A stretch of 64,000 nt of DNA from Flavobacterium terrigena (GTDB taxonomy: Bacteria; Bacteroidota; Bacteroidia; Flavobacteriales; Flavobacteriaceae). Of the stretch, positions 4,373 to 18,147 are shown one piece after another. The DNA is taken from contig NZ_FNYA01000004.1 in the NCBI RefSeq assembly GCF_900108955.1, positions 1 to 64,000 on the forward strand. The letters run 5' to 3'. The stretch's first letter is position 1. Each line of letters begins with the position of its first letter. The notes under the pieces are model-generated. The model saw only the letters and a list, made by a program, of their open reading frames with translations. It did no database searches and was not told the origin of the DNA. The position numbers were made by a program, and so were the translations under genes.

Positions 4373-4380
4373 TATCTTTG
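4373..4380 (+). promoter_or_regulatory. -7 box for the radical SAM gene
   Basis: TATCTTTG fits TAnnTTTG. It overlaps the most upstream in-frame TTG (4378), which rules that TTG out as the translation start. Confidence 0.5.
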
Positions 4381-4395
4381 TCAAAACATTTTCTT

Positions 4396-6576
4396 TTGAA
4401 AAACTTGCTCCTTATCACGCCACCTTTTACGCAATTGAATACGCCTTATCCTGCAACGGCTTATATCAAAGGGTTTCTAAATACGAAAAGTATTTCTGCT
4501 TTTCAAATGGATTTGGGGATAGAAGTGATTTTAGAATTATTTTCCAAAACTGGTTTACAACAAATTTTCGATTCCGTTGAACAATCTGAACTTACAACTG
4601 AAAACTTACAACGCATTTATAGTTTAAGAGCTGATTACATCAATACAATAGATGCGGTAATCGCTTTTCTACAAGGAAATAATCCAACGTTAGCACGACA
4701 AATTTGTAGTGGAAATTTCTTGCCAGAAGCTTTTCGTTTCAATCAATTAGACGATATGGAATGGGCTTTTGGAAACATGGGAATGCAAGACAAAGCGAAA
4801 CATTTAGCCACGTTATATTTAGAGGATTTATCCGATTTTATTGTAGAATGTGTCGATGAAAATTTCGGATTTAGTCGCTACGCAGAACGATTAGGTAGAA
4901 GTGCGAATTCGTTTGACGAAATGTATGCCGAATTACAAAATGAAACAACCTATATCGATAAAATCACGCTTAAAATTTTAGAAGAAAGAATAAAAGAAGT
5001 ACAACCGAAACTGGTTTTAATTTCTGTGCCTTTTCCTGGAAATTTATATAGTGCTTTTCGTTCCGCTCAATTTATAAAAGCCAATTTCCCAGAAATCAAA
5101 ATTTCTATGGGTGGCGGTTTTCCAAATACCGAATTACGTAGCTTAAAAGACACCAGAGTTTTTGAGTTTTTAGATTTTATTACACTCGACGATGGAGAAT
5201 TGCCAGTAGAATTATTATTTGAAGCAGTTTGTCAGACTGAGCGTGTTGAAGTCCAATTCAAAAGAACATTTCTTCTAGAAAACAATGAAGTCGTTTATAA
5301 AAACAACACCACAAAACACGATTACAAGCAATCGGAAGTTGGAACACCAGACTATTCGGATTTACTTTTAGATAAATATATTTCTGTTATTGAAATCGCC
5401 AATCCAATGCACAGTTTGTGGAGCGATGGACGTTGGAATAAACTAACCATGGCGCACGGTTGCTATTGGGGAAAATGTACGTTTTGCGATATCTCGTTAG
5501 ATTATATTAAAATTTACGAACCCATTGCAGCTAAGACTTTAGTCGACAGAATGGAAGAAATGATTGCTCAAACTGGTGAAACCGGATTTCATTTTGTAGA
5601 TGAAGCCGCGCCACCAGCTTTAATGCGTGAAGTGGCTTTAGAAATCTTAAATCGTAAGTTGGTTGTTACTTGGTGGACAAACATTCGTTTTGAAAAAAGC
5701 TTTACACAAGATTTGTGTTTATTACTAAAAGCTTCTGGTTGTATAGCCGTTTCTGGTGGGTTAGAAGTTGCTTCAGATAGATTATTGAAATTAATAGATA
5801 AAGGCGTAACGGTAGAACAAGTGGCGAAAGTCACACATCATTTTACGGAATCTGGAATTATGGTTCACGCATATTTGATGTACGGTTATCCAACTCAAAC
5901 AATTCAGGAAACGATTGATAGTTTAGAGATGGTTCGACAATTATTCGAATTAGGTGTGATTCAATCCGGATTTTGGCATCAATTTGCTATGACAGCACAT
6001 TCTCCTGTAGGCTTAAATCCAGAAGAATTTGGAGTAATTCCACAACAAAACGACATTACATTTGCCAATAACGATATTCAATTTACAGACAAAACCGGAA
6101 TCAATCACGATAAGTTTAGCTTCGGATTAAAAAAATCGTTGTTCAATTATATGCACGGTATTTGTTTCGATTACGATTTACAAGATTGGTTCGAATTTAA
6201 GATTCCAAAAACGAAGATTCAGCATAATTTTATTGAAAACGCTATTCTAGATTCAGATAATTTTTCACTAAAACCAACTGCGAAAATTATTTGGATTGGA
6301 AACCAACCGATTGTAGAACATTTTACTAAATCTAAAAAAGGAAATAGCTGGGAAATGTCTAAACTTATGTTTCATATGAAATCGGATTCTGTAGAAATAA
6401 CCTTAGAAAGAGACAAAGCAGAATGGTTAATTTCAGTACTTCAATCTGTTTCTAATAAAAGTGAGGCATTAAAAAACATAAAACAAGATTTTGAAACGCA
6501 TTTTGAAGATTTTGAATTGTTTTGGTTTAGTAAACCTATAAAAACTTTGCGCGATACAGGATTGTTAATTCTGTAA
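4396..6576 (+). CDS. B12-binding-domain radical SAM protein
   Basis: A 726-aa iron-sulfur enzyme. The N-terminal half (to about residue 310) resembles a cobalamin-binding Rossmann domain, including 'KPKLVLISVPFPGNLYSAF' and 'SMGGGFPNTELR'. A radical SAM barrel follows, with cluster cysteines C356, C361 and C364 in HGCYWGKCTFCDIS, then 'SGGLEVASDRLLKLIDKGVT' and 'YLMYGYPTQT' as later barrel strands. The spacing C-x4-C-x2-C is slightly off the usual C-x3-C-x2-C. Substrate is unknown. There is no ATG near the start; TTG at 4396 gives MKNLLLITPPF, the usual opening of the family, and leaves about 10 nt of leader. Confidence 0.82.
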   Translation: MKNLLLITPPFTQLNTPYPATAYIKGFLNTKSISAFQMDLGIEVILELFSKTGLQQIFDSVEQSELTTENLQRIYSLRADYINTIDAVIAFLQGNNPTLARQICSGNFLPEAFRFNQLDDMEWAFGNMGMQDKAKHLATLYLEDLSDFIVECVDENFGFSRYAERLGRSANSFDEMYAELQNETTYIDKITLKILEERIKEVQPKLVLISVPFPGNLYSAFRSAQFIKANFPEIKISMGGGFPNTELRSLKDTRVFEFLDFITLDDGELPVELLFEAVCQTERVEVQFKRTFLLENNEVVYKNNTTKHDYKQSEVGTPDYSDLLLDKYISVIEIANPMHSLWSDGRWNKLTMAHGCYWGKCTFCDISLDYIKIYEPIAAKTLVDRMEEMIAQTGETGFHFVDEAAPPALMREVALEILNRKLVVTWWTNIRFEKSFTQDLCLLLKASGCIAVSGGLEVASDRLLKLIDKGVTVEQVAKVTHHFTESGIMVHAYLMYGYPTQTIQETIDSLEMVRQLFELGVIQSGFWHQFAMTAHSPVGLNPEEFGVIPQQNDITFANNDIQFTDKTGINHDKFSFGLKKSLFNYMHGICFDYDLQDWFEFKIPKTKIQHNFIENAILDSDNFSLKPTAKIIWIGNQPIVEHFTKSKKGNSWEMSKLMFHMKSDSVEITLERDKAEWLISVLQSVSNKSEALKNIKQDFETHFEDFELFWFSKPIKTLRDTGLLIL

Positions 6577-6697
6577 CATTTTTGCGTAATAGCGTTTTAT
6601 TGTGTTGTTTTATCGTTATTTTGTTGTTATTTTTACATTAAATTATGTTTTTTGTTGATTTTTTTATATATTTAAAGAAATATAGAGAAATTCATCT

Positions 6698-8797
6698 ATG
6701 AATATAATAGTACGCAACCTCAGAAATTCAACTTATTTAAAGGTGGTAACTCTGTTATCTGTAGTTTCTTTTGGATTATTACTAATTGTAGTTTTCCTTT
6801 ATTTCTATATGCGAGTTCAAGAAAAAGAAATTTTTAAGAACAGCAAAGAATTATATCAAAATGAAATCAATTCTCTTCTAAAATTAAATTCAGAATCTTA
6901 TTCAGCTGTTGTAAATGATGCCACTTATTGGGATGAATTTGTAAAATTTACTCAAACAAAAGATTTAAAATGGTTTAATACATCAATTGCGATATTAATT
7001 GATACGTATGATGTAGAACATTTATCCGCTTATTCTGCAGATGGAGAATTTATTACCAAAGTCTCCACTTTAAAAATTAAAACGAAAGACTTTATCCCAA
7101 AGGAAGTTTTTAGTCTTATCAAAGAGAAAAAATTCGAGAAATTTTATATAAGAATTCCAGAAGGAATTGTAGAAATTTACGGAGCATCTATTCATCCATC
7201 AAACGATCCATTCAAAAATAAAACAAAACCGTCTGGATATTTTTTCATGGCGCGACTTTTAGATAGAGATTATTTCGCAAATATTGAAGAAATCTGCAGT
7301 TCTAAAATAAAGTTTTATACGGGTAAGGAACGAGCTTTAAAAACTGTTTTTACAACCATTCCATTACTTGATATCAATAAGAGGGAAGTGGCCAAATTGT
7401 ATTTCAAAAGATCTTACGATATCGATTTTTATATTACGAAAAGTATTTTATGTATTATGGCAATGGCCATAATTTTATCGTGGGGAATTTTCTTTTTTTA
7501 TGCAAATAAATGGGCGCAAGTGCCTTTGGAATTAATTAAAAGAATTTTAAAAGGAGATACGGTAGCCATCGAAAAATTAAAAAAGATTAAAGGTGAATTC
7601 CGTCATATGGGTAAACTCTTTGAAGAAAATTTAAACCAAAAAACGGAACTGATTGCATCTAAAATAAAAGCAGAAGAAAGCGATAAACTAAAATCGGCGT
7701 TTTTGATGAATTTGTCTCACGAAATTAGAACGCCAATGAATGCCATTGTTGGTTTTTCTGATTTGCTATTAGATGAGAAAACAACAGAGTTTGAAAAACA
7801 CGAATACGTTAGAATTATACAATATAATAGCAGAAGTTTGCTAAGTATTGTAGATGATTTAATTGAAATGTCGAAAATTGATTCCGATTTAATTAAACCA
7901 AATTACAGTAATGTAAGTCTGGAAAAACTATTAAAAGCTGCTTATGAATCGGCAAGTTTCTCTAATAAAAACAGTAATGTTGTTGTTAAATTACAAGAAC
8001 CAAGCGAAAAACCTAAGAGAAATATTGTTACCGATGCTGTAAAACTGAATCAAATTTTAGTTAACTTATTGAATAATGCCTTAAAATTCACAGATGAAGG
8101 TTTTGTGATTTTAGATTACGAAATTGATCCTGTAAAAAATCTAATTATTTTTGAAGTGAAAGATTCTGGAATTGGAATGCCTGAAGAATTTAAAGAGAAA
8201 ATTTTTAAACGTTTCAATAAAATCAATGCGAAAAAGATTTCTGCAAATGAAGGTTTAGGTTTAGGATTGGCCATTTCTAAATCATATGTGGAAATGCTTG
8301 GCGGAACCATTTCTGTAGAAACAAAAGAAGGTTTGGGTTCTACATTTAGGTTTACCATACCTTTGCAATATGCTACAAATGATAATGCTGAGGTGAAAAA
8401 AGTAAACTCAATTGAGAATTACACTTTAGGAAACGAAGAAGTTGTTTTAGTAGCAGAAGACGATAATATTAATTTTAAACTTATCGAAAAACTATTGAAG
8501 ATCTTTAATTTTAAAGTGATTAGAGCAGTAGACGGATTAGAAGCGGTTGAAATTTGTAGAACCCATAACGAAATTGATTTGGTTTTTATGGATATTAAAA
8601 TGCCGAATTTAGATGGTTATGGCGCTTTTCAAAAAATTAGAGAATTCAATAAAGAAATCCCAATAATTGCTCAAACTTCTTATTCATTTCCTGAAGAAGT
8701 GGATAAAATTAAAGAACTCGGATTCAACGATTTTATTTCTAAACCTTTAGAAAAAGAGAAATTGTACGAATTGGTTAAAAAATACTTTAATAAGTAA
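6698..8797 (+). CDS. Hybrid sensor histidine kinase with periplasmic CHASE4-like domain
   Basis: A 699-aa membrane protein. Residues 14-38 form TM1, followed by a periplasmic domain with the CHASE4-like 'SAVVNDATYWDEFVKF' stretch, and TM2 lies near residues 248-270. The cytoplasmic part has a DHp helix with the phospho-acceptor H341 (LSHEIRTPMN), a complete ATPase domain (N box LNNALKFTDEG, G boxes DSGIGMP and GLGLGLAIS) and a C-terminal receiver with acidic pair EDD, phospho-acceptor D632 (FMDIKMPNLDG) and Lys in ISKPLEK. No dedicated response regulator or HPt gene is adjacent, so the phosphorelay partner and the signal are unknown. Confidence 0.9.
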   Translation: MNIIVRNLRNSTYLKVVTLLSVVSFGLLLIVVFLYFYMRVQEKEIFKNSKELYQNEINSLLKLNSESYSAVVNDATYWDEFVKFTQTKDLKWFNTSIAILIDTYDVEHLSAYSADGEFITKVSTLKIKTKDFIPKEVFSLIKEKKFEKFYIRIPEGIVEIYGASIHPSNDPFKNKTKPSGYFFMARLLDRDYFANIEEICSSKIKFYTGKERALKTVFTTIPLLDINKREVAKLYFKRSYDIDFYITKSILCIMAMAIILSWGIFFFYANKWAQVPLELIKRILKGDTVAIEKLKKIKGEFRHMGKLFEENLNQKTELIASKIKAEESDKLKSAFLMNLSHEIRTPMNAIVGFSDLLLDEKTTEFEKHEYVRIIQYNSRSLLSIVDDLIEMSKIDSDLIKPNYSNVSLEKLLKAAYESASFSNKNSNVVVKLQEPSEKPKRNIVTDAVKLNQILVNLLNNALKFTDEGFVILDYEIDPVKNLIIFEVKDSGIGMPEEFKEKIFKRFNKINAKKISANEGLGLGLAISKSYVEMLGGTISVETKEGLGSTFRFTIPLQYATNDNAEVKKVNSIENYTLGNEEVVLVAEDDNINFKLIEKLLKIFNFKVIRAVDGLEAVEICRTHNEIDLVFMDIKMPNLDGYGAFQKIREFNKEIPIIAQTSYSFPEEVDKIKELGFNDFISKPLEKEKLYELVKKYFNK

Positions 8798-8890
8798 TAT
8801 TTAAACTATATCATTTTTGCAATTTCTTGTAAATAAAATTTACTTAAACGTTTTCTTTTGCTTATTTTTACGCTCAAATTTTATGTAATT

Positions 8891-9376
8891 ATGAGTAAAC
8901 CTTATAAAATTTCAGTAAACGAAAATCAAGTTTTTAACTTTACTGAAAATAGCGTAACTGCTTTAGATGCTGTAAGTGTAGAAGAAAATCATTTTCATAT
9001 TCTAAACGAAAACACACCTTTTCAGGCAGAAGTTGTCACTGCCGATTTCAATTCAAGAAAGTATAGCGTAAAAGTTAATGGAAATACTTACGATGTGAGT
9101 ATTGCCAACGAATTAGATTTATTAATTGAATCTATGGGAATTTCTGTGGGTGCGAACAAAGTAGTCAACGAAATTAAAGCGCCAATGCCAGGATTAATCC
9201 TTGAAGTTTGCGTTGCAGTTGGACAAGAAGTTACCGAAAATGAACCTTTATTAATTTTGGAAGCTATGAAAATGGAAAACACGTTAGTGTCGCCTCGTAG
9301 TGGAAAAATTAAGTCTATTGCCGTTGAAAAAAGCAACGCCGTAGAAAAAGGACAATTGTTAATCGAGTTTGAATAA
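8891..9376 (+). CDS. Biotin carboxyl carrier subunit of an acyl-CoA carboxylase
   Basis: A 161-aa protein whose C-terminal 75 residues form a biotinyl domain with the attachment motif EAMKMENT (biotinylated K127) and the 'IKAPMPGLILEVCV' lead-in strand. The N-terminal half resembles the linker domain of propionyl-CoA carboxylase-type carriers. It is the first gene of a three-gene biotin-dependent carboxylase operon, followed after one base by the biotin carboxylase. I chose the ATG at 8891 over an upstream alternative start at 8858 because it gives the compact family N terminus. Confidence 0.9.
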   Translation: MSKPYKISVNENQVFNFTENSVTALDAVSVEENHFHILNENTPFQAEVVTADFNSRKYSVKVNGNTYDVSIANELDLLIESMGISVGANKVVNEIKAPMPGLILEVCVAVGQEVTENEPLLILEAMKMENTLVSPRSGKIKSIAVEKSNAVEKGQLLIEFE

Positions 9377-9377
9377 G

Positions 9378-10817
9378 ATGAAAAAAATATTAGTTGCAAA
9401 TAGAGGTGAGATTGCTATTCGAGTAATGCAAACCGCCAAAAAAATGGGAATTAAAACGGTTGCTGTATATTCTACAGTAGATAGAAATTCGCCACACGTA
9501 AAATTTGCCGATGAAGCCGTTTGTATTGGTGAAGCGCCATCGAATCAATCGTATTTATTAGGTGATAAAATTATAGAAGTTTGTAAACAACTAGGCGTGG
9601 ATGGAATCCATCCGGGTTATGGATTTTTGAGTGAAAATTCAGATTTCGCAGAACTAGCCGAAAAAAATAACATTACGTTCATCGGACCGAAATCTAAGGC
9701 GATGAAAGTAATGGGAAGTAAATTAGCTGCGAAAGAAGCAGTGAAAGCTTTCAATATCCCTATGGTTCCTGGTTTAGATGAAGCAATTACAGATATCGCT
9801 TTAGCGAAAAAAGTAGCGTCAGAAATCGGATTTCCTATCTTAATTAAAGCATCTGCTGGTGGTGGTGGAAAAGGAATGCGTATCGTAGAAAACGAAGCAG
9901 AATTTGAATCACAAATGGACAGAGCAATTTCTGAAGCAACAAATGCTTTTGGAGATGGTTCTGTTTTTATTGAAAAATATGTGGGTTCTCCTCGTCATAT
10001 CGAAATACAAATTATGGCGGATAGTCATGGAAATATCTTGTATTTATTCGAAAGAGAATGTAGTATTCAACGTCGTCATCAAAAAGTAGTGGAAGAAGCA
10101 CCTTCTTCTGTTTTAACTCCAGAAATTAGAAAAGCAATGGGTGAAGCTGCTGTAAAAGTGGCGCAATCTTGTGATTATTTAGGAGCTGGAACAGTTGAGT
10201 TTTTATTAGACGAAAACAAGAATTTCTACTTTTTAGAAATGAATACGCGTTTACAAGTAGAACATCCGGTAACGGAAATGATTACAGGTTTAGACTTAGT
10301 AGAAATGCAAATTCGTGTCGCTCGTGGTGAAAAATTAACGATTACTCAAGACGATTTACAAATTAAAGGGCACGCGATGGAATTACGTGTGTACGCTGAA
10401 GATACGTTAAACGATTTCTTACCAAGTGTTGGGCATTTAGATGTGTACCAAATCCCGGTAGGTGAGGGCATCCGTGTTGATAATGGTTTCGAACAAGGAA
10501 TGGATGTGCCAATTTATTACGATCCGATGTTAGCGAAGTTAATTACGTACGGTAAAACACGTGAAGAATCTATCGAATTGATGATTAAAGCGATTGCTAA
10601 TTATCATATTGAAGGAATTAGTACAACGTTACCATTCGGAACATTTGTAATGGAGCATGAAGCGTTCCGTTCAGGAGATTTCGATACGAATTTCGTGAAG
10701 AAATATTACGACAGTAACAAACTAAAAGCCAAGTTCGATAAAGAAGCAGAAGTTGCGGCTTTAGTAGCTTTGAAAAGATATTTAGAGGATAAAGAGATTG
10801 TAAGAATCCCGAATTAG
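9378..10817 (+). CDS. accC: Biotin carboxylase subunit of acyl-CoA carboxylase
   Basis: A 479-aa ATP-grasp enzyme that carboxylates the biotin of the carrier protein using ATP and bicarbonate. It shows the biotin carboxylase N domain (KKILVANRGEIAIRV), the glycine-rich ATP loop (KASAGGGGKGMR), the metal-binding 'EMNTRLQVEHPVTE' segment with the catalytic Arg, and a C-terminal domain. Length is that of a stand-alone biotin carboxylase, slightly extended by a 30-residue tail. The cassette order carrier-carboxylase-carboxyltransferase points to propionyl-CoA or a broad acyl-CoA carboxylase more than to the acetyl-CoA enzyme, but the substrate is inferred. Confidence 0.93.
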   Translation: MKKILVANRGEIAIRVMQTAKKMGIKTVAVYSTVDRNSPHVKFADEAVCIGEAPSNQSYLLGDKIIEVCKQLGVDGIHPGYGFLSENSDFAELAEKNNITFIGPKSKAMKVMGSKLAAKEAVKAFNIPMVPGLDEAITDIALAKKVASEIGFPILIKASAGGGGKGMRIVENEAEFESQMDRAISEATNAFGDGSVFIEKYVGSPRHIEIQIMADSHGNILYLFERECSIQRRHQKVVEEAPSSVLTPEIRKAMGEAAVKVAQSCDYLGAGTVEFLLDENKNFYFLEMNTRLQVEHPVTEMITGLDLVEMQIRVARGEKLTITQDDLQIKGHAMELRVYAEDTLNDFLPSVGHLDVYQIPVGEGIRVDNGFEQGMDVPIYYDPMLAKLITYGKTREESIELMIKAIANYHIEGISTTLPFGTFVMEHEAFRSGDFDTNFVKKYYDSNKLKAKFDKEAEVAALVALKRYLEDKEIVRIPN

Positions 10818-10896
10818 GGAAAAGGCAAAAGGGATAAGGGAAAAGAGTCAAGTAAAAAGGCAAAAGGCAAAAGTAATTGCTGAACGCTAAAAGCTA
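10818..10896. repeat. Purine-rich degenerate intergenic repeat
   Basis: Repeated AAAAGGCAAAAGG-like motifs fill the gap between the carboxylase genes and resemble 1123-1165 and, more loosely, 61093-61130. They carry no open reading frame and probably form part of the operon transcript. Confidence 0.5.
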
Positions 10897-10904
10897 AAAA
10901 ATAT

Positions 10905-12446
10905 ATGCAAGACAAAATAAAAATATTAGAAGATAAAATTGCCTTAGCCAAATTAGGCGGTGGTGAAAAACGTATCGCTTCGCATCATGCTAAAAAGAAA
11001 TTAACGGCAAGAGAAAGAGTGGAATACTTATTAGACGAAGGTTCTTTTGAAGAAATTGGTATGTTGGTTACACATCGTACGACAGATTTCGGGATGGAGA
11101 AAGAGCAATATTACGGAGATGGAGTAGTAACTGGTTACGGAACAATCAACGGAAGAGCGATTTATATTTTCGCACAAGATTTCACTGTTTTTGGTGGTTC
11201 ATTATCTGAAACTCATGCAGAGAAAATCTGTAAAGTGATGGATATGGCTTTGAAAAATGGTGTTCCAATGATTGGTTTAAACGATTCTGGTGGTGCTCGT
11301 ATTCAAGAAGGTGTGCGTTCATTAGGTGGTTATGCTGATATTTTCTACAGAAACGTTCAGGCATCTGGAGTGATTCCGCAAATTTCTGCGATTATGGGAC
11401 CATGTGCTGGTGGAGCGGTTTATTCTCCAGCAATGACCGACTTTACTATGATGGTGGAAAACAACAGTTATATGTTTGTAACTGGTCCGAACGTAGTAAA
11501 AACAGTTACGAATGAAGAAGTGACTTCAGAAGAATTAGGTGGTGCGAGTACGCATTCAACGAAATCTGGAGTAGCGCATATTACGTCTGAAAATGGAATT
11601 GAATGTTTGGAAGATATCAAACGTTTGTTGAGTTATGTTCCTCAGAATAATAGAGAAACAGCACCTGCGATTCCTTTTGAATTGAAAGACGAAATTAGAG
11701 AACAATTGAGTAATATCGTACCAGATTCTGCGAATAAGCCGTACGATATGCACGAAGTTATTAAAGGAATTATTGATGAAGATTCTTTCTTTGAAATTCA
11801 TAAAAACTTTGCTGAGAATATTATTGTTGGTTTTGCACGTTTGGGTGGAAGAAGTATTGGTATTGTGGCCAATCAACCGATGTTTTTAGCAGGTTGTTTA
11901 GATGTAAACAGTTCGATAAAAGCGGCAAGATTTGTACGTTTTTGCGATTGTTTCAATATTCCTTTATTGGTGTTAGAAGACGTTCCAGGATTTTTACCAG
12001 GAACTGACCAAGAGTGGAACGGGATTATTACTCACGGTGCGAAATTATTATATGCCTTTAGTGAAGCGACAGTTCCAAGAATTACGGTGATTACTCGTAA
12101 AGCTTATGGTGGTGCTTATGATGTAATGAACTCGAAACACATTGGTGCGGATATGAATTTTGCTTGGCCAAGTGCAGAAATTGCTGTAATGGGAGCAAAA
12201 GGTGCTTCGGAAATTATCTTTAAGAAAGAAATTAGTGAAGCCGCTGACCCTGCAGCTAAATTATTAGAAAAAGAACAAGAATATGCGGATTTATTCGCGA
12301 ACCCATACACGGCAGCGCAACGTGGTTTTATTGATGAGGTGATTTTACCAAAAGACACTCGTAAGAAATTAATAAAAGCGTACAGCATGTTAGAAAACAA
12401 ACAGGTTTTATCACCGCCAAGAAAACACGGTAATATTCCTTTATAA
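10905..12446 (+). CDS. Acyl-CoA carboxylase carboxyltransferase (beta) subunit
   Basis: A 513-aa crotonase-fold carboxyltransferase of propionyl-CoA carboxylase beta length. It moves the carboxyl group from biotin to the acyl-CoA. Visible features are '[24 protein letters not shown]', the N-domain oxyanion glycines in [16 protein letters not shown] and the C-domain '[19 protein letters not shown]' with a second glycine pair. The protein contains both carboxyltransferase halves, unlike the split AccA/AccD of acetyl-CoA carboxylase, supporting a propionyl- or methylcrotonyl-type enzyme. A strong terminator follows 20 nt after the stop. Confidence 0.92.
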
Positions 12447-12463
12447 GTACTTTATAAAAACAG

Positions 12464-12496
12464 AAACTCCCAATGTGAATTGGGAGTTTTTTTTTG
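12464..12496 (+). terminator. Terminator of the carboxylase operon
   Basis: AAACTCCCAAT / ATTGGGAGTTT stem of 11 bp with loop GTGA and a long T run. A near-identical stem recurs at 12971-13004, on the other side of the tandem array. Confidence 0.85.
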
Positions 12497-12539
12497 CTTC
12501 TTATAGTAGCAAGTATAACTTTAATGTGATGCTAATATA

Positions 12540-12959
12540 GGAAATAAAGTTGTTAATTCTGGAAATACGTTTGTTAATTGCGGAAATGAAGTTGCTAATT
12601 TCGGAAATGAAACTGCTAAAACTAGAAACAAAGTTGCTAAAACTGGAAATGAAACTGCTAAAACTGGAAACAAAGTTGCTAAAACTGGAAACAAAGTAGT
12701 TAAAACTGGAAACAAAGTTGTTCAAACTGGAAATGAAGTTGTTCAAACTGGAAATACGGTTGTTAGTTTCGGAAATGAAACTGCTAAAACTGGAAATGAA
12801 ACTGCTAAAACTAGAAACAATGTTGCTAAAACTGCAAATGAAGTTGCTAAAAGTCCATAGTAATATGCTAAAACTACATACAAAGTTGTAAAAAGTCCAA
12901 ACAAAGTTGTCAAAAGTCTAAAGTAATATGTGAAAAGCACAAACAAAGTTGAAAGTATT
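12540..12959. repeat. Tandem array: 20 units of 21 bp, no indels
   Basis: Twenty consecutive 21-nt units, consensus about GGAAACAAAGTTGCTAAAAC(T), run from 12540 to 12959 with every unit exactly 21 nt. The central units are nearly identical; the last six (from about 12834) are more diverged. The plus strand is open for about 105 codons as a seven-residue repeat (GNKVAKT-like) but has no start codon and stops in unit 15. Short minus-strand frames read as hydrophobic repeats but are broken by stops. I treat it as a non-coding minisatellite. It accounts for most of the 646-nt gap between the carboxylase and the PH-domain gene. Confidence 0.9.
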
Positions 12960-12970
12960 TCTTTGTAAAT

Positions 12971-13004
12971 AAAAAAACTCCCAATTTACATTGGGAGTTT
13001 TTTT
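12971..13004. terminator. Second copy of the bracketing terminator
   Basis: The same 11-bp stem AAACTCCCAAT / ATTGGGAGTTT as at 12464, loop TTAC, with A and T runs on both sides. It can end transcription from either direction. Confidence 0.75.
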
Positions 13005-13010
13005 GTGATT

Positions 13011-13043
13011 AGACCTGACAGGTTTTTGAAACCTGTCAGGTCT
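13011..13043. repeat. REP-like perfect palindrome
   Basis: AGACCTGACAGGTTT and its exact complement form 15-bp arms around a TTG loop. It lacks a T run, so it is not a normal terminator. It resembles in size and layout the palindrome at 63737-63777 next to a REP-associated transposase, but the sequence differs. Confidence 0.7.
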
Positions 13044-13092
13044 GTAGAGACTTTGTTCAGCTTGTCCTATTTCAAAACGTGATGCGCCAAAA

Positions 13093-13434
13093 CTACACAT
13101 TTACCGATTTGTTAAATTGTTTTTTAATGCTTGGTTGCGTTTCACTAGAAACCCAAATTTTCAATTCGGCTTCTAAGTCAAATGTTCCAGCGGTTTCTAT
13201 GCTGAAACGTGAGATGCTTTTATAGCTTATCGATTTATATTCCGTTTTACTTCCAGTAAGACCTTGCACATCGACTAAAATTAGACGTTTGTTGGTAAAA
13301 ATAAACGTATCACGAATTAACTTGAAACCTAATTCTATTTCTTCTGAATCGGTTAATAATTGACCGTATTTTTTTACTAAATCTTCTTGGCTAACGGCTC
13401 CTGCGTTACCTAGTAATGATGAAAATATTCCCAT
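13093..13434 (-). CDS. Bacterial PH-domain protein
   Basis: A 113-aa soluble protein. Its 'LTDSEEIELGFKLIRDTFIFTNKRLILVDVQGLTGSKTEYKSISYKSISRFSIETAG' core is the typical bacterial pleckstrin-homology fold (bPH family), ending in a beta strand 'ELKIWVSS' and a short C-terminal helix. These small proteins usually assemble as rings or domes; ligands are mostly unknown. It stands alone on the minus strand between the tandem array and a palindromic element. Confidence 0.8.
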   Translation of the reverse strand: MGIFSSLLGNAGAVSQEDLVKKYGQLLTDSEEIELGFKLIRDTFIFTNKRLILVDVQGLTGSKTEYKSISYKSISRFSIETAGTFDLEAELKIWVSSETQPSIKKQFNKSVNV

Positions 13435-13475
13435 GTTTTTGTTTTTGGTTTTTGATTTATATTGTTTGTTTTTTT

Positions 13476-13582
13476 GCTGTGCAAAGTCTCCTGACTTTGA
13501 ACTTATTTTATTTGCTTTTTTTAATGGCTCAAAGTCGGGAGACTTTGCGTAGCTGGCTCAAAGTCGGGAGACTTTGCGCAGC
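13476..13582. repeat. Palindromic element copy A (with a duplicated right arm)
   Basis: Left arm GCTGTGCAAAGTCTCCTGAC + TTTGA (13476-13500) is an inverted match to TCAAAGTCGGGAGACTTTGC + GTAGC (13529-13553); the right arm is repeated again at 13558-13582. The 28-nt spacer is rich in T. A second copy with the same arms and nearly the same spacer lies at 13961-14037. Confidence 0.85.
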
Positions 13583-13597
13583 AGGTTTTTTATTTAT

Positions 13598-13930
13598 TTA
13601 ATCTTTTTTATCTTTAAAAAGTTCTTGAACAAGCTTTTCTTGTTCAATTTTTCTCTCTAGTTCATTTATTTTTTGTTGGGAGCTTTCAATAACACCAAAA
13701 CAAACTACAGGAACAATACCAAAAGTAATTACACATGCAAATAAAACACCTCCCCAATATCCATATTGTTCAATAAGAGTACCCTTTTTTAATGGGATAA
13801 ATGGTAGTATAAATGTGAAAACAACCAAAAATAAAAATAACTTTAATTTTGAATTTTTCATTTTAAATAACTCTTCTTTTTTGGATTTAAGTTGGTTTTC
13901 TAATTCTAATAGTCTGTTGCTATTATTCAT
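13598..13930 (-). CDS. Small membrane protein with flanking coiled coils
   Basis: A 110-aa protein I do not recognise. Residues 3-30 are a charged helix (LLELENQLKSKKEEL), two hydrophobic segments follow near residues 30-47 and 59-82, and residues 83-110 are a second charged helix ('QQKINELERKIEQEKLVQELF'). Both ends would face the same side of the inner membrane. The ATG at 13930 was chosen because the longer reading to 13969 begins inside the repeat. The gene sits exactly between the two palindromic elements. Confidence 0.6.
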   Translation of the reverse strand: MNNSNRLLELENQLKSKKEELFKMKNSKLKLFLFLVVFTFILPFIPLKKGTLIEQYGYWGGVLFACVITFGIVPVVCFGVIESSQQKINELERKIEQEKLVQELFKDKKD

Positions 13931-13960
13931 ATTAAAAATGTTGGTTTTATATTTCTTGGT

Positions 13961-14037
13961 GCTGTGCAAAGTTTCCTGACTTTGAACTTATTTTATTTGC
14001 TTTTTTTGAGGCTCAAAGTCGGGAGACTTTGCGCAGC
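13961..14037. repeat. Palindromic element copy B
   Basis: Arms at 13961-13985 and 14013-14037 match copy A (13476-13582) with one base different in the left arm; the spacer ACTTATTTTATTTGCTTTTT is shared. The 25-bp arms would form a long hairpin. The two copies flank the small membrane gene in the same orientation. Confidence 0.85.
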
Positions 14038-14083
14038 GAGTTAGTTCGTGTGCAAATCCGAGCTATCAAGAGCATTTGTCTTT

Positions 14084-14593
14084 TTAAATATGAAAGTAAT
14101 ACTTTAAAATTAATGTTACAATTACTGATGCAATAATTCCTGAAATAAAAAGTAGGTAATCCCTCAATGCGCTTCTTTTGTCTCCTTTGTTTAGAATTGC
14201 TTCAAAATGTGTTAAAGCTTCTAATGGAACTTTTTGCAATGTTTCAACTTTGGTTTTGAGATTTATTTCTTCGTTAGAAAGTTCAGCAAGTCTTTTTTCT
14301 ATTGCATCAATATTTTTTTCTTTTTCTTTCATTAATTCAGAAAATTCTACAGTTGCCTTATCAACTTCTACAAAGGCATTTTTTAAAACAGATAAAGTAT
14401 CTTCAAGCCTTTGCTTATAAGATTTCTGTTCATTAATTTCTATGTCAAATAATTTCGCAATAAATTCTTGTGTTTTACCAATTTGTCCTTTTTTAATTGA
14501 ACTTTCAAGAAATTCTTTTGCAATTGTTCTTAAAATTGGTAGAATTCCACCTAGTAAAGTAGCTATTAGTCCTGCAATAATTTCTATTCCCAT
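14084..14593 (-). CDS. Coiled-coil membrane protein of unknown function
   Basis: A 169-aa protein. It opens with a hydrophobic stretch (EIIAGLIATLLGGILPILRTI, residues 3-23), continues as a long coiled coil (about residues 40-125, heptad-rich around 'EFSELMKEKEKNIDAIEKRLAELSN'), and ends with a clear transmembrane helix (residues 146-165). The first 25 residues resemble the N terminus of the receiver protein at 15775-16527, in the pattern EI..GLI....G.IL. It lies 103 nt downstream of the kinase on the same strand and probably belongs to that unit. No known domain is recognised. Confidence 0.65.
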   Translation of the reverse strand: MGIEIIAGLIATLLGGILPILRTIAKEFLESSIKKGQIGKTQEFIAKLFDIEINEQKSYKQRLEDTLSVLKNAFVEVDKATVEFSELMKEKEKNIDAIEKRLAELSNEEINLKTKVETLQKVPLEALTHFEAILNKGDKRSALRDYLLFISGIIASVIVTLILKYYFHI

Positions 14594-14696
14594 TTTGAAA
14601 TGTTATTATCTTATTATTAATTCTGTTTTTGGTTGTTTTTCGATAGCTTTGTCACTAACGTTAAGTGGTTTAGCGCTTTAGTAGCAGTTTACTATA

Positions 14697-15773
14697 TTAG
14701 TTTTTACTAATTGGTAATTCGAATTCAAATATATTTAGTCCAATAGGTCCATTTTCTCTTGGGTTCTTATGATATTCTAGTTTGCAATTATGAGCTTCTA
14801 AGATTTGATTTGCAATCCATAATCCCATTCCCATTCCTTCTTTTGAGAATTTTTTTCCTGATTCATCTCTGAAGAATTTTTCAAAAATATTTTCTTTATT
14901 TTGGTCATTGACTAAAGGGCCAATATTTTTAACAATTACTTTTAATACGCCATAGTGTTGTTCAAATTTAATATCAATGTCTGAGCCACTTACAGAGTAT
15001 TTTAATGCATTATCTAATAGTATTAATGGGATAAACTCAATTGATTCATAACAATAACAATCATCAACTCTAATTTCTGAGCTTAATTTTATATTTACAT
15101 CTCTCTTTTTAGTTGATAAGTGTTCAAATAAAGCTTTAATTTTATCAAAAAGTTTATATAAGTTTATTGGTTTCTTTTTTCCAAATTGTATGCTGTTTGG
15201 GTTTAAAATTACGTCAACCATTCCTAATTGCGAAGTAATCAAATCTAGAGAATTATATAGATCTTTATAGGATTTATCACTATTTTCTAATTTTTCAGTA
15301 AAAGTATTTCCTTCCAAATTATTAATTATATCTTGTGTACAAGTATAAAAAATTGACATTGATGTTTTAAAATCGTGAAACATTGAGAAGTTTTTCTCAG
15401 TAGTTTCATTAATTCTTTTTTCTAAATATAATTCTATCTCTTGAATTTTTTTTGAAAACAAAACAACTTCATTTCGATTTATTTGCCATTCTTTTCTAAC
15501 ATCTTTCCTTCCATTTGGAACTGATTTATTATCTTGAAAAATTAAGCCATTAATGATGAATTTTATTTCTCCTACTATAGATAAAATATTATTATAACCC
15601 TTTGAACAAATATATTCTTCCAAATTATTATTACTTTCTGTTAATTTTAAACAATCTTTTTCATTGCATTTTTCAACACAAGTTTTGTTTTGTTTTAACT
15701 CAATTGAATCGATAAAATCATTTTCAATAATAAAAGGATATTTTGATAAGGCTTTTATAAGTTCTTTATCCAT
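14697..15773 (-). CDS. Cytoplasmic histidine kinase with an N-terminal Cys cluster
   Basis: A 358-aa protein without membrane segments. Residues 30-60 hold four cysteines (C32, C36, C41, C56), which may bind a metal or sense redox state. A DHp-type helix has the phospho-acceptor H133 in MFHDFKTSM, close to the HisKA box. The C-terminal ATPase domain has the N box LLDNALKYS and the glycine-rich lid 'KEGMGMGLWIANQILEAH', but the G1 region is degenerate ('VKNIGPL'). It begins one base after the stop of the receiver gene, so the two are translationally coupled. The pair looks like a complete two-component system whose output is not DNA binding. Confidence 0.8.
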   Translation of the reverse strand: MDKELIKALSKYPFIIENDFIDSIELKQNKTCVEKCNEKDCLKLTESNNNLEEYICSKGYNNILSIVGEIKFIINGLIFQDNKSVPNGRKDVRKEWQINRNEVVLFSKKIQEIELYLEKRINETTEKNFSMFHDFKTSMSIFYTCTQDIINNLEGNTFTEKLENSDKSYKDLYNSLDLITSQLGMVDVILNPNSIQFGKKKPINLYKLFDKIKALFEHLSTKKRDVNIKLSSEIRVDDCYCYESIEFIPLILLDNALKYSVSGSDIDIKFEQHYGVLKVIVKNIGPLVNDQNKENIFEKFFRDESGKKFSKEGMGMGLWIANQILEAHNCKLEYHKNPRENGPIGLNIFEFELPISKN

Positions 15774-15774
15774 T

Positions 15775-16527
15775 TTATTTAAAAAATTTTATAATTGTTT
15801 CACTAAGGCTTTTAATTTGTTTTGCTAGGTCTGTTCTATTTTGTATGAATTCTAAGGATTTATTCCAATCAGGAGCTTTTTTTCGTTTAATTGCTTTAGC
15901 GATTTCTGCTTTTATTTTTTTTATGTTACTATCGCTAATGTTGTTTTTTAAAAGTAACTGATCTAAAGCACTTATATATCTGTCAGGTTTAAATTGAGTG
16001 GTAATTAAATTATCTAAAATATTCTTAATCTTTAAAAAATCACTTGGTTTAGCAATATTCTCGTCTGCAAGTTGAAAAAATTCAATTTTACTTAAATCAA
16101 AGCTATGTTGAGAATAAGAAATTATTATTTGCGCAGGATTATTCTTTTTTAAACTTATTAATACGCCTAGACCATCATCCTCAGAAATATGTAATGCTAC
16201 ACCTTTTATATCTAGAACTATTATATCAAAAAAACCATTTTCCAACTTACTATAATCTTTTACAATGTCCCATTTGTCAATTGTATATCCTTCATCCTTA
16301 AATAATTTTGTTGGAAAACTATTTTCATCATCAATTACTATAATTCTTGTTCTTTTTTTTAATTCATCAAACTCATCAGAAATTTTAAAATTTTTAAGAT
16401 TTATATTTTTATTAGTCCAAATAAAATTTTTTGAACTTCCTGTTATACTGTTATAAATTTTTGTTGATGCAAAATTTAAAATTGAACCGCCAGCAGCGAC
16501 TATTAAACCTGTTGCTATTTCTGTCAT
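15775..16527 (-). CDS. Receiver-domain protein with hydrophobic N terminus
   Basis: A 250-aa protein, first in a minus-strand unit. Residues 1-25 are a glycine-rich hydrophobic stretch (EIATGLIVAAGGSILNFA). A receiver domain covers about residues 60-175, with the acidic pair D66-D67 (IIVIDDENS), phospho-acceptor D106 (IIVLDIKGV), S137 (IIISYSQH) and K160 (NIAKPSD), so all key residues are present. The last 75 residues are helical and basic, with no helix-turn-helix that I can see. It is likely phosphorylated by the downstream kinase. A weak minus-strand -7 box (TATGTTTG, 16594-16601) precedes it. Confidence 0.75.
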   Translation of the reverse strand: MTEIATGLIVAAGGSILNFASTKIYNSITGSSKNFIWTNKNINLKNFKISDEFDELKKRTRIIVIDDENSFPTKLFKDEGYTIDKWDIVKDYSKLENGFFDIIVLDIKGVALHISEDDGLGVLISLKKNNPAQIIISYSQHSFDLSKIEFFQLADENIAKPSDFLKIKNILDNLITTQFKPDRYISALDQLLLKNNISDSNIKKIKAEIAKAIKRKKAPDWNKSLEFIQNRTDLAKQIKSLSETIIKFFK

Positions 16528-16613
16528 TTTTTTATTTAATTTTAAGTTTAATACTTATTTATAAAAAATTTAATAAACTATTATCTATTTTCCCAAACAT
16601 ACAAAAAATCCCA

Positions 16614-16641
16614 CAAAAAAAGACCGCTAAAAGCAGTCTTT
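16614..16641 (-). terminator. mtaB terminator
   Basis: AAAGAC-GCT / AGC-GTCTTT stem with one mismatch and a loop of AAAA, followed on the minus strand by a run of T. It lies 25 nt after the mtaB stop. Confidence 0.7.
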
Positions 16642-16665
16642 CTATATCAGTTATCAACAATTTTA

Positions 16666-17994
16666 TTATGCAGGTACGTTTACAAATTCCATGCGTACCA
16701 AACCATCATCGTCAATTTTAGTTAGTGTAATTTCGTGTAAAGTGTTGGCTAATTCTGGGTTCCAAGGCGTTTTTACTTTTACGTAGTTTTCGGTAAAACC
16801 AGTAATGTAACCTTCTTTGTTTTCGTTTTCAAACAAAACCGTACGAGTCGTGCCAATTTGACTTTCATAATACGCTCTGCGTTTTTTCACAGAAAGGCCA
16901 CGTAACATTTTACTACGTTTACTTCGCACATTACCTGGCACTGCGCCTGGCATATTTGCGGCTTCCGTATTGTCGCGCTCACTATACGTAAACACGTGTA
17001 AATAAGAAATGTTCATTTCATTTAAATAATTGTACGTTTCTAAAAAGTGTTCGTCGGTTTCACCAGGAAATCCTACAATTACATCCACACCAATACAAGC
17101 GTGTGGCATTACTTCTTTAATTTTATTTACGCGTTCCGTATAAATTTCACGTTGGTAACGACGCTTCATTTTTCCTAAAATTTCATTGCTACCACTTTGT
17201 AATGGAATATGAAAATGCGGAACAAACGTGCGGCTTTTACTCACGAATTCTATCGTTTCGTTTTTTAGTAAATTAGGCTCAATGCTTGAAATTCTTAATC
17301 TTTCAATACCATCAACTTTGTCTAATTCTTGTACTAATTCTAAGAAAGTATGTTCGTGTTTTTTATTTCCAAATTCACCTTTACCGTAATCCCCGATGTT
17401 TACACCAGTTAACACAATTTCTTTAATGTTTTGCTCTGAAATTTCTTTGGCGTTTTTCAACACATTTTCCAAAGCATCACTTCTCGAAATCCCACGCGCT
17501 AACGGAATTGTACAATACGTACATTTATAATCGCAACCATCTTGTACTTTTAGGAAAGCACGCGTTCTGTCGCCAATAGAATAACTGCCCACATAAAAAT
17601 CGGCTTCTTCAATTTCGCAACTGTGCACTTCTCCCATATCGTTTTTCGATAGGTCGTTGATGTAATCGGTGATTTTAAATTTTTCTGTAGCACCTAAAAC
17701 CAAATCTACTCCATCAACTGCGGCTAATTCTTCTGGTTTCAGTTGGGCATAACAACCCACAGCAGCAACAAAAGCTTTGTCGTTTAGTTTCATTGCTTTT
17801 TTCACCACTTGTTTAAACTGTCTATCGGCATTTTCCGTTACCGAACACGTGTTAATCACGTAAATATCGGCTACTTCTTCAAAATCCACTCTGTCAAAAC
17901 CTTCGTCATTGAAGTTTCTGGCAATAGTAGAAGTTTCTGAAAAATTCAGTTTACAACCTAGTGTATAAAAAGCTACTTTTTTTCTATCAGACAT
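16666..17994 (-). CDS. mtaB: tRNA t6A37 methylthiotransferase MtaB
   Basis: A 442-aa radical SAM enzyme that converts t6A to ms2t6A at position 37 of ANN-decoding tRNAs. The N-terminal UPF0004 domain has its three cluster cysteines C14, C50 and C81. The radical SAM cluster is C154, C158 and C161 (CDYKCTYC), and a C-terminal TRAM domain follows ('GTTRTVLFENENKEGYITGFTENY'). The MtaB-type opening KVAFYTLGCKLNFSE separates it from MiaB and RimO. The start is preceded by a 150-nt leader that holds a dispersed hairpin repeat. Confidence 0.95.
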   Translation of the reverse strand: MSDRKKVAFYTLGCKLNFSETSTIARNFNDEGFDRVDFEEVADIYVINTCSVTENADRQFKQVVKKAMKLNDKAFVAAVGCYAQLKPEELAAVDGVDLVLGATEKFKITDYINDLSKNDMGEVHSCEIEEADFYVGSYSIGDRTRAFLKVQDGCDYKCTYCTIPLARGISRSDALENVLKNAKEISEQNIKEIVLTGVNIGDYGKGEFGNKKHEHTFLELVQELDKVDGIERLRISSIEPNLLKNETIEFVSKSRTFVPHFHIPLQSGSNEILGKMKRRYQREIYTERVNKIKEVMPHACIGVDVIVGFPGETDEHFLETYNYLNEMNISYLHVFTYSERDNTEAANMPGAVPGNVRSKRSKMLRGLSVKKRRAYYESQIGTTRTVLFENENKEGYITGFTENYVKVKTPWNPELANTLHEITLTKIDDDGLVRMEFVNVPA

Positions 17995-18007: not shown

Positions 18008-18137
18008 GGGCGTGCCCTTTCAGGTCGTGCTATCCGTTACAATCTTTTTTATTTGTGCCTTCGAGAGCACTTCGACAGGCTCAGTGTGACACCTCAGGCG
18101 ACAATTAAAAAAGGATTTCCACTCTTATCACTCACGC
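18008..18137. repeat. Dispersed hairpin element in the mtaB leader
   Basis: GGGCGTGCCC starts a segment with outer arms like CCGTTACAATCTTTTTT (18029-18045) and AAAAAAGGATTTCCAC (18107-18122), which can pair imperfectly. Inside it is CACTTCGACAGGCTCAGTG (18069-18087), itself a short imperfect hairpin. No reading frame is supported. This arrangement resembles dispersed flavobacterial intergenic hairpin elements as I remember them; that comparison was not checked. Confidence 0.45.
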
Positions 18138-18147
18138 AAATCGGTTG

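Follow-up and report, generated by a model that had tools for sequence, protein, structure and literature searches.

The first 64,000 nucleotides of Flavobacterium terrigena contig NZ_FNYA01000004.1 (hereafter the window) carry two adjoining two-component genes on the minus strand, one for a receiver protein of 250 aa (REC, 15775-16527) and one for a soluble histidine kinase of 358 aa (HK, 14697-15773). We found that REC-HK is a real recurrent two-gene system and a divergent clade of PDC-M43, an existing and unvalidated defense candidate. Its interest exceeds that of an ordinary two-component system, but it is less novel than the original prediction, made from the sequence of the window, had supposed. 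From the genomic context of its relatives we infer a defense function: the pair may be a PDC-M43-type phosphorelay, coupled as an operon and spread by horizontal transfer, which acts against phages or other elements, a proposal whose chances we judge about even.

Gene order and contact are conserved throughout the relatives, which are given here by locus number. REC precedes HK in 14 of the 14 loci with both genes readable, at gaps from -11 to +1 nt. The genes lie 1 nt apart in the window and close together in all 13 other pairs, with a gap of -1 nt in L121, which agrees with the tight coupling that had been predicted. This count excludes L024, which is cut by a contig end, and L067, which shows no open kinase frame over the stretch read. 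Bacteroidota and related genomes supply the readable pairs, along with two conjugative plasmids from gammaproteobacteria; further pair loci were drawn from genomes G556 and G818.

Searches against PADLOC-DB 2.0.0 placed both proteins in a single family up to E 1. REC matched three models, with PDC-M43A as the best (PDLC04646, 3.8e-13), and HK matched PDC-M43B (PDLC04647, 2.2e-16). "Undescribed", as the system had been called, is too strong a word because this database already holds candidate models for the wider family. The name PDC-M43 was not found in the literature searched; PMC12988326 describes PDCs as unvalidated guilt-by-embedding candidates. Two ordinary-looking receivers, L017 and L018, also score with the PDC-M43A model (2.3e-9 and 7.4e-9), and we therefore used a second character, an insertion in a receiver loop. 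Five to six residues are inserted after the phosphorylated Asp in 15/15 aligned RECs (five after D106 in the window) and in 0/12 ordinary receivers, eight of these being close copies of a single protein; the aligned loop reads DIKGVALHISEDDG against DIK-----MPKMDG in ordinary receivers. The insertion is our own criterion, and the order and touching of the genes were read from the loci and not from a published definition. Unrooted trees split RECs from ordinary receivers with support of 98% (13 versus 4 sequences), 97% (insertion columns removed) and 88% (15 versus 12). They also support the window clade with L019 and L121 (94%) and group L012, L013, L014, L066, L067 and L068 (100%), whereas the positions of L015 and L080 relative to ordinary receivers reach 40-64% only.

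The window pair thus has the REC-HK order, the coupling and the receiver loop insertion of PDC-M43, as well as the hydrophobic REC N terminus seen in several members, and it differs within the family by forming a separate branch. In kinases of the window clade, a Cys4 N terminus is combined with H(D/E).K as the H-box and (N/S).G as the G1 box, whereas the PDC-M43 kinases of L012, L013, L014, L066 and L068 show H-N-(L/I) and no recognizable G1 box. Likewise, REC of the window clade has a C-terminal helical extension, unlike the RECs of L012, L066, L067 and L068. A functionless remnant in this genome would fit the patchy occurrence, the frameshifted kinase of L023 (a metagenome-assembled genome, MAG, so an assembly error is possible) and the L067 kinase that is not open. 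It is nevertheless very improbable, as the reading frames of the window are intact, the key residues are conserved and the clade relatives are 53-83% (REC) and 56-82% (HK) identical.

REC is composed of a hydrophobic N-terminal helix (residues ~4-26), a divergent receiver domain (~57-178) and a C-terminal helical extension (181-249). Its receiver residues are D66, D67, D106, S139 and K160, and among 13/13 aligned receivers K57, D66, D67, D106, G119, G121, D155 and K160 are invariant. The acidic residues and the lysine had been assigned correctly in the original prediction, which placed the switch residue at S137 instead of S139. The latter is nearly invariant and sits at the phospho-switch position, with T in L015 and L080 and S/T in ordinary receivers. 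Pfam recognizes only the receiver in REC, below threshold (21.1 bits, cut-off 30.2; search up to E 1), and NCBIfam gives a single weak match that covers the same part. Neither search recognized an output domain, DNA-binding or otherwise, joined to the receiver, in line with the predicted lack of such an output. The N terminus is hydrophobic as foreseen, but as a membrane span it is borderline, with a best 19-residue mean hydropathy of 1.45 in the window, next to 1.51-1.87 in L019-L023 and 1.5-2.1 in L012, L066 and L068. In the AlphaFold model (mean pLDDT 75), a receiver fold stands between an N-terminal helix at 5-29, modeled with low confidence, and C-terminal helices, the part from 181 to 249 being modeled confidently (pLDDT mostly 86-93). 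Over residues 55-182 the model aligns to ordinary receivers, with Z 12.5-13.8 among the 50 matches listed. No fold was identified for the C-terminal helices, a part that the structure searches barely probed.

HK begins with a Cys4 region (C32, C36, C41, C56), followed by an H-box with H133 (FHDFKTS), an N-box with N255 and a G2 box with G313, G315 and G317. HATPase_c is its only Pfam domain up to E 1 (2.1e-13). All four cysteines are invariant in six clade kinases, so the predicted cluster holds beyond the window; the same is true of H133, K136, N255 and the G2 glycines, while residue 134 is D or E. No strong membrane segment was found in HK (best hydropathy 1.31), consistent with its description as soluble. 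The kinase core resembles HK853 and other kinases. A structure search with the AlphaFold model (mean pLDDT 61), in which the Cys4 region is poor, likewise gave ordinary histidine kinases. The Cys4 spacing with the following G-[YF] is reminiscent of PocR; Pfam returned no PocR match in whole kinases (window up to E 1, L121 up to 0.1).

A coiled-coil protein of 169 aa is encoded on the same strand (14084-14593, minus) and starts 103 nt downstream of HK. It had been predicted to be linked to the pair and to end in a transmembrane segment. The C-terminal segment is present (~145-163), together with a second hydrophobic segment at ~3-21. The linkage did not hold: none of the 15 other loci with a full or partial pair has a homologue (best chance match E 0.30), and none was found in the 298 other family genomes, the plasmids or the viral contigs searched. 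We rejected a three-gene system because of this absence, an outcome that the original prediction had itself named as refuting, and regard the gene as a neighbor outside the conserved unit. The coiled-coil membrane protein could still be an effector that is released when REC is phosphorylated, as suggested by the shared strand, the short distance and an N terminus that is hydrophobic as in REC, and a lineage-specific effector is conceivable. With no homologue at any other pair locus, this is improbable. REC and the coiled-coil protein both begin with a short hydrophobic GLI...GG stretch, possibly by chance.

We surveyed the genes within 6 kb of the pairs. Of 159 neighbors, 156 were scanned against PADLOC in sets of 75 and 81, three genes of the window being left out, and the results given are the best 25 of 146 and the best 25 of 97 families. 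Neighbors of L121 were scanned with Pfam only, and those of L067 lay outside the scan. A known defense-system gene was assigned by hidden Markov models in 6 of 15 neighborhoods; a position next to known defense genes is among the outcomes that the original prediction had named as support. L020 contains the Septu gene PtuA (1.8e-99). In L022 a type VI retron reverse transcriptase (RT_VI, 6e-75) lies convergent to the pair, ~370 bp off. L023 carries AbiEi, AbiEii (1.2e-132), AbiH and a ThsB-like TIR protein (2.8e-110). Two 2TM CBASS effectors occur in L066, with a cyclase model match in the scanned set that was not assigned to a member. L081 holds HsdR of a type I restriction-modification (RM) system (9.5e-55), and the scanned set also gave matches to a type I methylase and a specificity subunit. 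In L121, two open reading frames with N6_N4_Mtase matches precede a gene for 592 aa, whose end lies 43 nt upstream of REC. As separate observations, the CBASS-like cluster of L066, on a Shewanella conjugative plasmid (5978-7803), has its 2TM effectors on either side of an annotated diadenylate cyclase gene, and the 592-aa protein of L121 (10674-12452, minus) has no Pfam or PDB match and contains an ENK stretch, possibly marking a restriction enzyme.

Weaker signs of defense come from four more loci. In L079, a gene for 914 aa ends 31 nt upstream of the pair and has NPPY, DPAGGSG and an E.K stretch; from these motifs it is a candidate type IIG restriction enzyme, and the Pfam, PADLOC and PDB searches gave no match. 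In L078 (genome G556), a gene for 306 aa (7344-8264, minus) 163 nt downstream of the kinase shows a weak match to Nuc_deoxyrib_tr (1.8e-5) and one to a TIR effector (7.5e-10). L068 has a NACHT protein (PDC-S60, 6e-14) and L024 a PDC-S04 match.

Such neighbors might also mean that the pair regulates adjoining defense systems, for instance RM, retron or Abi, and does not defend by itself. In L121 and L079 the pair comes immediately after gene runs that contain methylases, which fits this, and there is a precedent in CapK/CapS, regulators described in PMC13373217 as adjoining immune operons. However, the neighboring systems vary by locus, several loci have no identified defense neighbor and REC has no recognized DNA-binding domain, which makes a regulatory role rather unlikely. 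A second alternative is a membrane-associated two-component pair for stress or metabolites that is carried by mobile DNA into variable spots rich in defense genes. Intact catalytic residues in kinase and receiver are compatible with it, as are the 5 of 15 neighborhoods, the window among them, without a defense gene among the best PADLOC families listed, and an mtaB-side site that varies between relatives. On the other hand, in the loci listed no transporter, regulon or enzyme gene recurs next to the pair, REC again offers no recognized DNA-binding domain, and the pair follows the methylase gene run of L121 at 43 nt and the methylase-motif gene of L079 at 31 nt. We consider this alternative possible, though doubtful.

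As a control, we scanned 148 proteins encoded on 12 of 14 segments that were taken from six genomes with the pair; they matched 28 PADLOC families, of which the best 25 were read. The segments lay at fixed coordinates of our choosing, two of the 14 were dropped for size, and the cases they are compared with include two plasmids. We read the control matches as cross-matches of common proteins. Counted in this way, 6/15 compares with 0/12 at p 0.017 in a one-sided Fisher test, and without L121 (5/15) at p 0.037; we treat these statistics as supportive only.

Several observations weigh against the defense proposal. Control matches were led by RtcR (7.1e-110) and MzaA (4.1e-50), with pVip, Csa3, E1-E2 and others below 1e-12, and if one or two control segments are counted as positive, the p value for 6/15 rises to 0.075 or 0.19. 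L121 was counted on DNA methylases alone, and such enzymes can be orphan. The best 25 PADLOC families listed include no defense gene at the window, L021, L080, L082 or L083. Placement by PDC-M43A is blurred by the scores of L017 and L018. The features assigned to signal and output are also uneven: a clear hydrophobic helix is missing in 4/13 RECs (L013, L014, L015 and L080, hydropathy 0.4-0.8) and is borderline in that of the window, and the Cys4 motif is missing in the PDC-M43 kinases of L015, L066 and L068. The original prediction of a signaling pair with a possible defense role is nevertheless supported by the defense genes near relatives, the patchy spread and the PDC-M43 match.

The distribution of the pair is patchy, and the window clade is sporadic in Bacteroidota. 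A scan of 84,980 species, with one genome per species and close sequence patterns only, found kinase relatives at seven loci. Four are near full length, namely L020 from Flavihumibacter (63% identity), L021 and L023 from Bacteroidota MAGs (83%) and L022 from Pseudoflavitalea (56%). L024 is truncated by a contig end, and the distant L025 (34%) and L026 (27%) were left outside further analysis. With its own genome counted, the kinase N terminus occurs in 1/299 family genomes and the kinase clade in 2/395 class genomes. REC of the window matched no plasmid. The PDC-M43 receiver of L012 matched 3 of 72,556 plasmids, from Shewanella (L066), E. coli (L068) and Kosakonia (L067), and the plasmids of L066 and L068 are both conjugative. 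The pair of the L068 plasmid found no match in E. coli genomes in near or distant mode. A phage-borne origin was considered and dropped: the proteins tested had no match in phage records or viral contigs, REC of the window not being among the phage-record queries. Upstream of REC lies a gene (16666-17994) that we take from its presumed family to be mtaB. In the two relatives nearest by MtaB, mtaB abuts a homologue of window 4378-6576, and ~10 kb (6577-16665), including the pair, is absent; we make no claim to exact insertion borders. The PH-domain gene stands in different surroundings in 19 relative loci, each read with 1.5-kb flanks.

If the pair does serve defense, the cytoplasmic HK would use its N-terminal Cys4 region, which is probably metal- or redox-linked, to sense infection or what infection brings about. 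HK would autophosphorylate at H133 and pass the phosphoryl group to D106 of REC. The parts of REC that flank the receiver are the best candidates for the output because no third gene recurs in the loci read and no DNA-binding or enzyme domain is recognized. REC may thus be its own output: phosphorylation would switch the state of its N-terminal hydrophobic helix and C-terminal helices, with the inner membrane as the most likely site, and growth stop or death of the infected cell would follow. A stricter version makes REC itself the killing effector: an infection-sensing, metal-binding kinase would phosphorylate a receiver inserted in the membrane, which the receiver would then perturb. Neither a separate effector nor a nucleotide signal nor gene regulation would be involved. 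We advance this version, with these exclusions, only tentatively.

The pair in the window is AT-rich, as had been noted, with a G+C of 0.246 in REC-HK against 0.336 across the 5-kb flanks. Between mtaB and REC lies a terminator-like hairpin with a T-run (16605-16660, minus; dG -18.3 kcal/mol, z -5.1), which a simple terminator consensus scan missed. It suggests that the pair is not transcribed through from mtaB, and REC-HK may therefore have its own promoter. Downstream of the coiled-coil gene, the region 13475-14037 (strand not assigned) contains three copies of the 28-nt palindromic element GGCTCAAAGTCGGGAGACTTTGCGCAGC, at 13526-13553, 13555-13582 and 14010-14037. Their arms are near-complementary, and one more copy occurs elsewhere in the genome with up to two mismatches allowed; palindromic elements do adjoin these genes, as reported from the sequence. 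Farther along, an array of a 21-nt unit with 15 in-register positions (12477-12959) lies between carboxylase genes and the PH-domain gene, bordered by 30-nt inverted terminator-like repeats (12464-12493 and 12971-13000). A Flavo-1 small RNA (Rfam RF01705, 50.6 bits) is located upstream of mtaB at 18019-18142 on the minus strand.

Two-component signaling is a very common bacterial sensing device. The REC receiver differs from ordinary two-component regulators in that no Pfam output domain is recognized next to it. PorX, a response regulator of the type IX secretion system, provides the top Foldseek rows for the REC model and likewise has a receiver followed by helices. However, Pfam finds no PglZ domain in REC, the root mean square deviation over the whole alignment is ~13 Å, and VIA-align covers the receiver part only (model residues 55/58-177), as it does for many other receivers. 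HATPase and REC domains are also listed in the legend of Fig. 6F of the DefensePredictor paper, among predicted, unvalidated systems (PMC13092281); the likeness to the window pair is one of domain names.

A further close system is Detocs (defensive two-component system), to our knowledge the sole accepted defense use of two-component signaling. Its genes encode a kinase, a stand-alone receiver and a receiver-effector, and the kinase bears tetratricopeptide repeats. In HK, Pfam gives only HATPase_c up to E 1, and divergent repeats could escape it. The window family differs further from Detocs in recurring as two genes with one receiver protein, with no third gene recurring in the loci read, and in having no PNP or other effector domain on REC (Pfam up to E 1). 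Detocs is a three-gene family, its best-known form carrying an ATP-degrading PNP effector, as set out in PMC11249213. If the proposed role is true, a two-gene pair that recurs on conjugative plasmids and in the vicinity of RM, retron, CBASS, Septu and Abi genes would make phosphorelays a broader class of immune sensors, and REC-HK would offer a compact, genetically tractable system of one kinase and one receiver with clear point mutants. What the window pair has in common with Detocs is a histidine kinase and a receiver without transcription output, found in a defense context.

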